64,000 nt of DNA, from NCBI RefSeq assembly GCF_000313915.1, contig NZ_AMYT01000022.1, positions 62,001-126,000 on the forward strand, in the 5' to 3' direction. The position numbers and the translations under genes were made by a program. The DNA is from Catellicoccus marimammalium M35/04/3. Lineage in GTDB: Bacteria > Bacillota > Bacilli > Lactobacillales > Catellicoccaceae. Position 1 is the first letter of the stretch. Each line of letters opens with the position of its first letter. Below are positions 60,785 through 63,559 of the stretch, piece after piece. The notes beneath the pieces are model-generated. The model made no database searches. It worked only from the letters and a program-made list of their open reading frames with translations, and was not told the DNA's origin.

Positions 60785-61411
60785 ATGAATGTAAGAGAAA
60801 AATTACAGCAGTTTGGAGTAAAAAGTTTAAGCGATTTTGAATTGCTTTATTTATTATCCGATGAAAAAATTCTTCGTTCAATGTTACCAATTCCAATTTC
60901 TTGGAGTCAAATTTATCGTTGGACAAAAGAAGATTGGCTTCAATTAAATGGACTCACAGAAAAAGAAATTGCTCGTCTACAGTGCGCCTTAGAGATTGGA
61001 TTGCGTTTAAGAAAAGAAAAGAGTCAATCTAAAGAAAGTATTACCCATCCAGATCAATTACGAGAGCTATTGATTAGTGAGCTTGGATATAGTAAACAAG
61101 AACATTTATTTTTACTATGCTTCAATATTAAAAACCAAATTATTGCGCAGCGTCATATTTTTGTAGGAGGATTTGATGAGTCAATTGCTCAACCAAGAGA
61201 AATTTTTTATTATGCCATCCAACATCAGGCCAAAAAAATTATGATTGCTCATAATCATCCAAGTGGAATGCTTACACCCAGTGAAAGTGATTTATATATT
61301 ACAAAAAAGATTCAAACTTGCGGAGAACTATTAGGGATTGAATTACTTGATCATTTTATTGTTTCTTCGACCGATGTTTTAAGTCTTCGCAAAGAAGGAG
61401 AAATGGAATAA
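60785..61411 (+). CDS. RadC-like JAB/MPN-domain protein
   Basis: 208 residues. Helix-hairpin-helix-like N-terminus (about 10-75) and a JAMM domain with A-H-N-H-P-S-G-x-L-T-P-S-E-S-D near residue 158. Historically called RadC; DNA repair role is doubtful. GGGAGGG site. Ends at a shared terminator. Confidence 0.9.
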   Translation: MNVREKLQQFGVKSLSDFELLYLLSDEKILRSMLPIPISWSQIYRWTKEDWLQLNGLTEKEIARLQCALEIGLRLRKEKSQSKESITHPDQLRELLISELGYSKQEHLFLLCFNIKNQIIAQRHIFVGGFDESIAQPREIFYYAIQHQAKKIMIAHNHPSGMLTPSESDLYITKKIQTCGELLGIELLDHFIVSSTDVLSLRKEGEME

Positions 61412-61440
61412 AAAAAGAAGCCTCAAAAGGCTTCTTTTTT
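61411..61440. terminator. Bidirectional terminator after radC-like gene
   Basis: AAAAAAGAAGCC / GGCTTCTTTTTT perfect stem, 6-base loop, ends 2 bases before the stop of the minus-strand small gene. Confidence 0.92.
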
Positions 61441-61441
61441 C

Positions 61442-61600
61442 TTATTTATCTTTGTTTTTGCAGTGACAGTGGCAACCACATTTGCCTTCTTTTTCTGCAC
61501 GTTCTTTTTCTAAGTTTTCGCGAGCTTCTGCTTCATGAATTTTTTCTTTTGCTAAAGCAGCGTCTACTTTTTTGTTGTCTTCCATTAATTTATGATCCAT
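61442..61600 (-). CDS. 52-residue charged peptide with CGCHCHC tail
   Basis: Residues 1-40 form one highly charged helix (A-K-E-K-I-H-E-A-E-A-R-E-N-L-E-K-E-R). Residues 41-47 are C-G-C-H-C-H-C, then K-N-K-D-K. ATG at 61600 follows AGGTGAG with a 5-base gap. Four Cys and two His within seven residues suggest metal binding. The family is unknown to me. It sits between radC-like and rnjA genes with its own terminator. Confidence 0.75.
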   Translation of the reverse strand: MDHKLMEDNKKVDAALAKEKIHEAEARENLEKERAEKEGKCGCHCHCKNKDK

Positions 61601-61668
61601 TACTCTCACCTCATTTTTTCTTTGACTATATTATAACAAAAAGAGGAGAGAGAAGGAATTAAAATGAC

Positions 61669-63345
61669 TTATTCTGATACGCGCATCACAATAGGTAAAA
61701 TCATTGGATGACGTTCTGTCTGTTCAATTAAGAACGGTTGTAAAGCATCAACCATTGCTTTATTTAAGGAACTTTCTGTAAAGTGTGGTTTTTTCATTTC
61801 TTTACGTAAAGCGGTGAATAGAATGCGTTGTGCATCATGAATTAATTTACCAGATTCACGCATGTAAATAAAACCACGAGATAAAATATCCGGTCCTGCA
61901 ATAATTTCTTTGGTTTCAAAATTAATTGTCGCTACTGCTAAAACTAATCCTTCTTCGGATAAGATGTGGCGGTCACGTAAGACGATATTTCCAATATCTC
62001 CAATACCATTTCCATCAACATAAACATCATTCGCTTGGAAGTGTCCAGCGATACGAGCAGAGTCTTTAGTTAAAGCTAAAATGTCTCCATTTTCCATAAT
62101 GAAACAATTTTCTTTTGGTACACCGACCGATTGAGCGGTACGAGCATGGATTTGTAACATACGGAATTCTCCGTGTACGGGAACGAAGAATTTTGGCTTA
62201 ATTAAACGTAACATTAATTTTTGTTCTTGTTGTCCACCATGTCCAGAAGTATGGATATTATTGATTTTACCGTGGATAACATGAGCTCCTGCTTCAATTA
62301 ACATATTGATTAAATGATTGACTGCTGCTGTGTTTCCAGGAATAGGAGAGCTTGAAAAGACAACCGTATCTCCTGGCTGAATGTTGATTTGACGGTGTGT
62401 ACCGTTGGCAATACGACTTAAAGCAGCCATTGGTTCTCCTTGAGAACCAGTACATAAAATCAAAATCTCATTCGCTGGATATTGATTGACTTCTTTTGCA
62501 TCAATAAAAGTATCTTCTGGTACGTTGATGTAACCTAATTTTTGTCCATTTACGATCGCATTTTCCATACTACGACCAAATACCGCAATTTTACGTCCCA
62601 TATGAACGGCTGCTTCTACAGTTTGTTGTAAACGAGAAATGTTAGAAGCAAAGGTCGCAAAAATAATTCGTCCTTCAATTTTTTCAAAAATTTGACGGAT
62701 TGATTTTCCGATTAATGCCTCTGAATTAGTGAAGTGAGGTACTTCTGCATTGGTGCTGTCTGATAAAAGACAAAGAACGCCTTCTTCTCCTAATTGTGCC
62801 ATACGATGTAAGTTAGCTGGTTCTTGAACAGGAGTAAAGTCAAATTTGAAATCTCCTGTTAAAACAATGTTTCCAGGAGGAGTTTTTACTACAACTCCTA
62901 AAGATTCAGGAATACTGTGAGTCGTACGGAAGAAACTAATCGTTGTTTTTCTAAATTTAATGACGGTATCTTCATTAATTTCATGTAATTCTGCATCGCG
63001 CAATAATCCATGTTCTTCTAATTTATTAGAAATTAGAGCTAATGCTAATGGAGTTGCGTAAATCGGAATATTGATTTGTTTTAATAAAAAAGGAATCCCA
63101 CCAATATGATCTTCATGTCCGTGGGTAATAATCAATGCTTTTACTTTATTCGCATTTTGGATTAAGTAGGAATAGTCTGGGATTACATAATCAATTCCTA
63201 AAAGGTCATCTTCAGGAAACTTGATTCCTGCATCGACGACGATAATTTCATCTTGGAATTGAACGCCATACATATTTTTCCCAATTTCGCCTAAACCACC
63301 AATCCCAAAGACGCCAGCCTCATTATTTTTAATGACTGGTTTCAT
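61669..63345 (-). CDS. rnjA: Ribonuclease J1
   Basis: 558 residues. Metallo-beta-lactamase motif [10 protein letters not shown] near residue 77, beta-CASP domain, C-terminal H-V-S/G-H-G region P-V-H-G-E and H-T-S-G-H-G. Acts as 5'-3' exonuclease and endonuclease in mRNA decay and rRNA maturation. ATG at 63345; the rpoY stop is 2 bases upstream. The rpoY neighbour identifies it as J1 rather than J2. Confidence 0.95.
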
Positions 63346-63346
63346 C

Positions 63347-63559
63347 TTAGAACTCCACAAGTTGGAAATCCGCATGTTCTTGTTCGTATGCTAATGAATT
63401 TCCTTCCAATAATTGAATGTATTCTACATTATATGGAGTATGGTCTTCGATTGCAGTTAAGGCATCTACCTTACTATCTGCTTCAATGTATAGTGATTTT
63501 GTTTGTTCGCGTTTTGGATTACGAATTTTATCTTCTTGATAGTATACTTTATAAATCAT
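63347..63559 (-). CDS. rpoY: RNA polymerase epsilon subunit
   Basis: 70 residues, DUF1447: M-I-Y-K-V-x-Y-Q, N-P-x-R-E-x-T-K-S-L-Y-I-E, and A-D-F-Q-L-V-E-F end. Small subunit of Firmicutes RNA polymerase. AAGGAG site. In an operon with rnjA. Confidence 0.95.

Follow-up and report, generated by a model that had tools for sequence, protein, structure and literature searches.

The 52-residue open reading frame (ORF) between radC and rnjA in Catellicoccus marimammalium is supported, by sequence statistics and a structural model, as a genuine small gene whose product has a likely metal-binding tail. The frame lies on the minus strand of the window, which here means the whole 64,000-nucleotide stretch of DNA analysed, in contig C20 of the 23-contig, 1,284,694-base genome. 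The best explanation, for which the balance stands at about even, is a lineage-specific cytosolic buffer or carrier of a soft metal (Cu(I)/Zn), in which a charged helix would hold a tail of the CXC type; we infer translation, metal binding, the identity of the metal and the buffering function. If binding of Cu(I)/Zn(II) is true, the peptide would amount to a metal-binding tail that is very small and stands alone, and would show how a lineage whose genome is pared down may deal with metals when the usual chaperone and sensor are missing. The gene itself is a complete-looking small one, beyond what homology searches alone would support.

Coding potential and expression signals of the small gene

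A sequence-only reading of this DNA had placed a 52-residue peptide with a CGCHCHC cluster at this site, and translation bore out its position, length and motif, the strand being minus (Table 1). The peptide (about 6.0 kDa, pI about 6.9) contains 11 Lys, 9 Glu, 6 Ala, 4 Cys and 4 His among its 52 residues and ends in KCGCHCHCKNKDK, with four Cys and two His packed within seven residues. An alternative GTG start three codons upstream of the ATG would lengthen it to 55 residues. A codon model built from 42 long ORFs in the window gave the frame 0.54 bits per codon, a value exceeded by none of the sampled wrong-frame segments and higher than that of 76% of the real-gene segments; when synonymous choice alone was scored, the frame ranked at the 39th percentile of the real segments and was surpassed by about 1% of those read in a wrong frame. 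Across the window's six frames, moreover, there was one cluster of at least four Cys and at least six Cys/His per seven residues, and none arose in 100 Markov-1 simulations of the window; the DNA pattern for CxCHCxC had a single occurrence in the 1.28 Mb genome.

Table 1. Positions in the window of the peptide gene, its parts, its expression signals and its two neighbours
Feature	Position	Strand	Evidence
52-aa ORF, MDHK...KCGCHCHCKNKDK (peptide MDHKLMEDNKKVDAALAKEKIHEAEARENLEKERAEKEGKCGCHCHCKNKDK)	61442..61600	-	translation and coding statistics
CGCHCHC cluster codons, residues 41-47	61460..61480	-	translation
Predicted charged helix codons, residues 3-40	61481..61594	-	AlphaFold single-sequence model
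Shine-Dalgarno GAGGTGA, 5 nt before ATG	61606..61612	-	sequence
Extended -10 promoter motif TGTTATAAT, 29 nt upstream of ATG	61630..61638	-	no good -35 by eye
Intrinsic terminator-like hairpin, 14 pairs and T-run, directly after stop codon	61410..61441	-	terminator scan
rnjA (RNase J1), 68 nt upstream of the peptide gene, same strand	61669..63375	-	family match
radC, convergent neighbour of the peptide gene	60785..61411	+	family match

AlphaFold modelling of the single sequence predicted a helix over residues 3-40 followed by a low-confidence tail (mean pLDDT 77.1, pTM 0.39), with block pLDDT values of 84, 86, 85 and 75 and then 62 and 54 in the tail. Mean hydrophobicity was below zero in all ten windows computed over residues 3-40, and muH across these windows ranged from 0.02 to 0.25, indicating weak amphipathicity without a clear interface.

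Judged from its promoter motif, ribosome site, terminator and codon use, the gene looks complete. The ribosome site and the gene's own terminator, both claimed by the sequence-only reading, were present, and a plus-strand hairpin overlapping the terminator serves radC; the 2.4 kb scanned held four terminator-like sites against a mean of 1.3 in shuffles. The extended -10 box, by contrast, was absent from that reading. Its motif was found six times in the window against a mean of 5.4 expected, that is, without enrichment, and a sigma-70 scan, which requires a -35 element too, did not list the site at 61630-61638, so position is the sole argument for this box. Because the scan listed no terminator-like site on the same strand in the gap between rnjA and the peptide gene, read-through from rnjA is possible. 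On this sequence evidence, transcription would proceed from the gene's own extended -10 promoter, possibly joined by such read-through. In addition, the CopY-type operator TACANNTGTA, allowing up to one mismatch, was not found in 61601-61720, which makes a copper induction of the CopY type unlikely for this gene.

Relatives and look-alike tails

On the best reading of the sequence searches, the peptide gene is lineage-specific, with no detectable relative beyond its own genome in the samples searched. Among 60 relatives it matched only itself at E <= 0.001. In the samples of the order (395 genomes), class (398) and phylum (398), which overlap and in which a short peptide that changes fast may escape notice, no relative was detected at E <= 0.001. 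At looser cut-offs and with its own genome included, matches were obtained in 17 order genomes at E <= 1 (best other 0.0092), 10 class genomes at E <= 0.1 and two phylum genomes at E <= 0.01 (best other 0.0055). A pattern scan, which requires close similarity over a short piece and may leave out records of the same or very near genomes, yielded 387 stretches in the contigs of 84,980 species and 23 in viral contigs, none of either being confirmed by tblastn. No match to the peptide was obtained in plasmids and phages, and a PHROG match at E 0.38 was disregarded. In the literature searched, the strings CGCHCHC and CGCHCH were not found, and among the works listed on small proteins, metallothionein, CXC motifs and Catellicoccus with metal terms, nothing on the peptide was seen.

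The sequence-only reading had held that its metal-tail idea would fail if the Cys/His cluster were not conserved, and had pointed to the interval between radC and rnjA in Lactobacillales. Conservation was looked for there and not found as far as sampled, which by that measure counts against the metal tail, in an order sample whose only member of Catellicoccaceae is Catellicoccus marimammalium itself. Because the order sample holds no second member of the family, the strongest rival is a young orphan gene that arose de novo and is translated, with a Cys/His tail that would have no specific metal job or would bind metal only incidentally. We regard this reading as rather unlikely. The lack of relatives in the samples searched agrees with it, as does the low-complexity composition, in which Lys, Glu and Ala make up 11, 9 and 6 of the 52 residues, whereas the codon use resembles that of established genes and the cluster was reproduced in none of the 100 window simulations. 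Taken by its sequence, the product is probably an orphan metal-binding small protein.

Three kinds of look-alike, namely CopY-type, NfnA-like and FeoB-associated proteins, are real genes, none of which is significantly homologous to the peptide by sequence comparison. At locus L004, the first encodes a repressor of the CopY type (39% over 38 residues, E 0.043; PF03965, 116 bits) that ends in KCGCTPGQCTCKH; immediately downstream lies the gene for an ATPase with HMA domains. The second, which ends in GGCGCHCHQ (E 0.0055), is a FAD/NAD subunit resembling NfnA/dihydroorotate dehydrogenase, with a relative ending in GGGCGCGCHQ in one of three other genomes of its class searched. In two genomes of one Bacillota family, a charged stretch and a CGCHCH or CGCGCH tail were observed on NfnA-like FAD/NAD subunits (L211 and L212), the CGCHCH tail of L211 lying past the point where the NCBIfam match ends; a third genome of this family (78% complete) gave no match. 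The third, from Blautia (L107), is a FeoB-associated Cys-rich membrane protein (PF12669, 59.7 bits) containing CGCHCHC. By analogy, these cases point to the CGCxC tail as a solution that unrelated genes may have reached repeatedly.

A genome scan for CGCHCHC gave at least 119 loci, and all 119 were read in frame; among the matches listed, 16 of the 119 had an in-frame ATG ahead of the motif. Of these, the only short ORF in which a charged stretch immediately precedes a terminal motif, in Metabacillus (L110), is 33 aa long, runs into the beginning of a TetR gene and was attributed to chance; one further locus (L088) looks like a Cys-rich protein, the remaining frames being judged by eye at most. 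DNA words for CHCHC were present in 131 of the 395 order genomes (own included), and a reversed-pattern control also matched many; 29 of the 30 loci read had no ATG before the motif, and these loci were treated as noise. Of the weak protein matches, those at 15 order loci were translated, out of 17 when its own is not counted (L011 and L014, near-duplicates of L010, being omitted), together with those at all nine further class loci. Beyond L004 they mostly had a wrong-frame look; five (L008, L009, L013, L015 and L202) were charged stretches without a Cys/His tail, and one with CACHCHC (L200), overlapped by several other open frames, was taken as chance.

The rnjA neighbourhood

A match to rnjA was present in all 118 genomes searched, and the best 30 of these loci were examined, one being the window's own and the other 29 being read over 1.5 kb downstream. 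A cold-shock gene (csp) followed rnjA in 17 of the 29 other loci, and a radC motif was found downstream in at least 12 of them by a strict search that missed a radC-like ORF in L041; the proximity of radC to rnjA is thus common to relatives. The Cys/His cluster was absent in any frame from all 29, one of which was mostly masked (28 readable). The peptide gene occupies the place where many relatives have csp. Positions 61412-61668 of the window hold no cold-shock gene, and the peptide gene fills the gap between radC and rnjA on the strand opposite radC. A degenerate csp was also considered for this gap and rejected, tblastn with a csp protein having given no match in 61301-61800. None of the neighbours radC, rnjA and rpoY belongs to metal homeostasis, which counts against the metal reading.

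The position of the gene raises another alternative, in which the small peptide would act together with RNase J1 or in mRNA decay, for example by helping to load RNase J1 with zinc or by modulating it, comparable to the action of SR1P through GapA in Bacillus. Position is the only hint of such a partnership: the gene follows rnjA by 68 nt on the same strand with no terminator-like site listed between. A sub-threshold Rfam SR1 match of the stretch (30.5 bits, E 0.00025) was rejected, since it compares with a gathering score of 45, skips about 95 positions of the model and draws on A-rich sequence and the terminator for its score. SR1P, a small protein of Bacillales that acts on GapA and RNase J1, is likewise small, and here the gene sits beside rnjA; the peptide, however, has no match to PF13790, nor has the genome at E up to 10, while seven of 14 controls match, one of them over the cut-off. 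SR1P is described as confined to Bacillales (PMC8152036). With no such tail downstream of rnjA in the 28 readable other loci either, we consider this partnership decidedly unlikely.

Tail chemistry and metal context

By the tests made on its sequence, the peptide is not a CopY, CopZ, metallothionein or SR1P, and its tail chemistry resembles the CXC motifs of CopY; against Pfam and NCBIfam, no family was matched at E up to 10. With four Cys in all and no match in either collection, the label metallothionein-like, proposed by the sequence-only reading, is an analogy only, while the rest of that proposal, a small gene with a metal-binding tail after a charged helix, gained from the coding statistics, the gene signals and the single-sequence model. 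Bacterial metallothioneins (SmtA, Pseudomonas MT and MymT) are likewise very small with closely packed Cys/His ligands, but the peptide lacks a many-Cys cluster, having 4 Cys, all in one tail, and 4 His, two of them in the tail, whereas Cys9His clusters are described for Pseudomonas MT (PMC7387436). As in the Gram-positive copper repressors CopR-CopY, a charged stretch is followed by KCGC...CxC near the C-terminus, and the peptide has the C-terminal motifs C41-G-C43, C43-H-C45 and C45-H-C47. It differs from them in standing alone without a DNA-binding domain (no Penicillinase_R match, PF03965), in lying away from any copper ATPase, and in the spacing CxCxCxC against CxCxxxxCxC in the L004 repressor. 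In contrast to the chaperone CopZ, the peptide has no HMA domain (PF00403) and is predicted to be a single helix. The FeoB-associated Cys-rich membrane proteins (PF12669) share a length of about 50 residues and, in L107, the same CGCHCHC, but have a membrane helix before the Cys-rich part, whereas the peptide is highly charged and has no PF12669 match. The NfnA-like subunits (L210/L211 and L212) share a charged stretch before a C-terminal GCGCHCH, though there the tail belongs to an enzyme of about 290-330 residues, and the similarity to the peptide is not significant.

As we picture the favoured buffer or carrier, a lineage-specific small gene would encode a soluble cytosolic peptide whose residues 3-40 would form a single highly charged helix, as in the single-sequence model, and whose tail C41-G-C-H-C-H-C47 would present four thiolates and two imidazoles to a soft metal; to judge from CXC chemistry, Cu(I) or Zn(II) would be the likeliest. 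Because no CopY-type operator precedes the gene, the peptide is probably a constitutive low-capacity metal buffer or carrier and not a copper-induced detoxifier. Such a role would be analogous to that of glutathione in Streptococcus pyogenes, which buffers excess copper and is described as a transcriptionally unresponsive component (PMC7733945).

The genome encodes a CopA-type ATPase whose score of 542 bits against the NCBIfam copper-ATPase model TIGR01511 clears the cut-off of 397; this ATPase contains the one HMA match in the genome. Single-family searches of this one draft (99.3% complete) gave no match to PF03965 (CopY), which seven of 14 control genomes match, or to PF02583 (CsoR), and found no stand-alone HMA protein. 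A CopA-type ATPase without CopY, CsoR or a stand-alone HMA protein fits the metal-buffer reading but proves nothing. In a more specific version, a newly evolved helix with a CxCHCHC tail would serve in the reduced genome of this one lineage as a minimal, non-HMA metallochaperone, a cytosolic Cu(I) carrier or buffer feeding CopA, to which we give little chance of being right. Elsewhere in the genome (L209:7052-10615, on G000:C19), the first ORF after the CopA-type ATPase encodes a 142-aa protein that matched nothing in NCBIfam or Pfam at E up to 0.01, and the second a lipoprotein-like protein with four NHDMG units, a possible copper-binding surface protein.

The tail could also make a structural zinc site, at least two peptides being bridged by their tails into a zinc-linked oligomer that would regulate something via the helix. 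For CopR-CopY, a CXC motif is described as binding copper 1:1 and two motifs as binding one zinc (PMC7253601), which is consistent with such bridging, as is the long predicted helix; the weak amphipathicity of that helix (muH 0.02-0.25), with no clear interface, speaks against it, and we hold this arrangement to be very unlikely. Highly improbable is an untranslated stretch acting as RNA (a small RNA or the rnjA 3' UTR) with a fortuitous ORF, since, despite a folding z-score of -2.73 with two of 200 shuffles folding as well, the stable pairing is mostly the terminator hairpin, no Rfam match reaches the gathering score, and the coding statistics and Shine-Dalgarno sequence argue for a peptide.

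The published genome of Catellicoccus marimammalium is given a size of 1,290,194, 31 large contigs and 42.0% G+C (PMC3569323). The G+C content was 33.9% in the window and 33.4% in a 14-kb stretch elsewhere, against that printed value of 42.0%.
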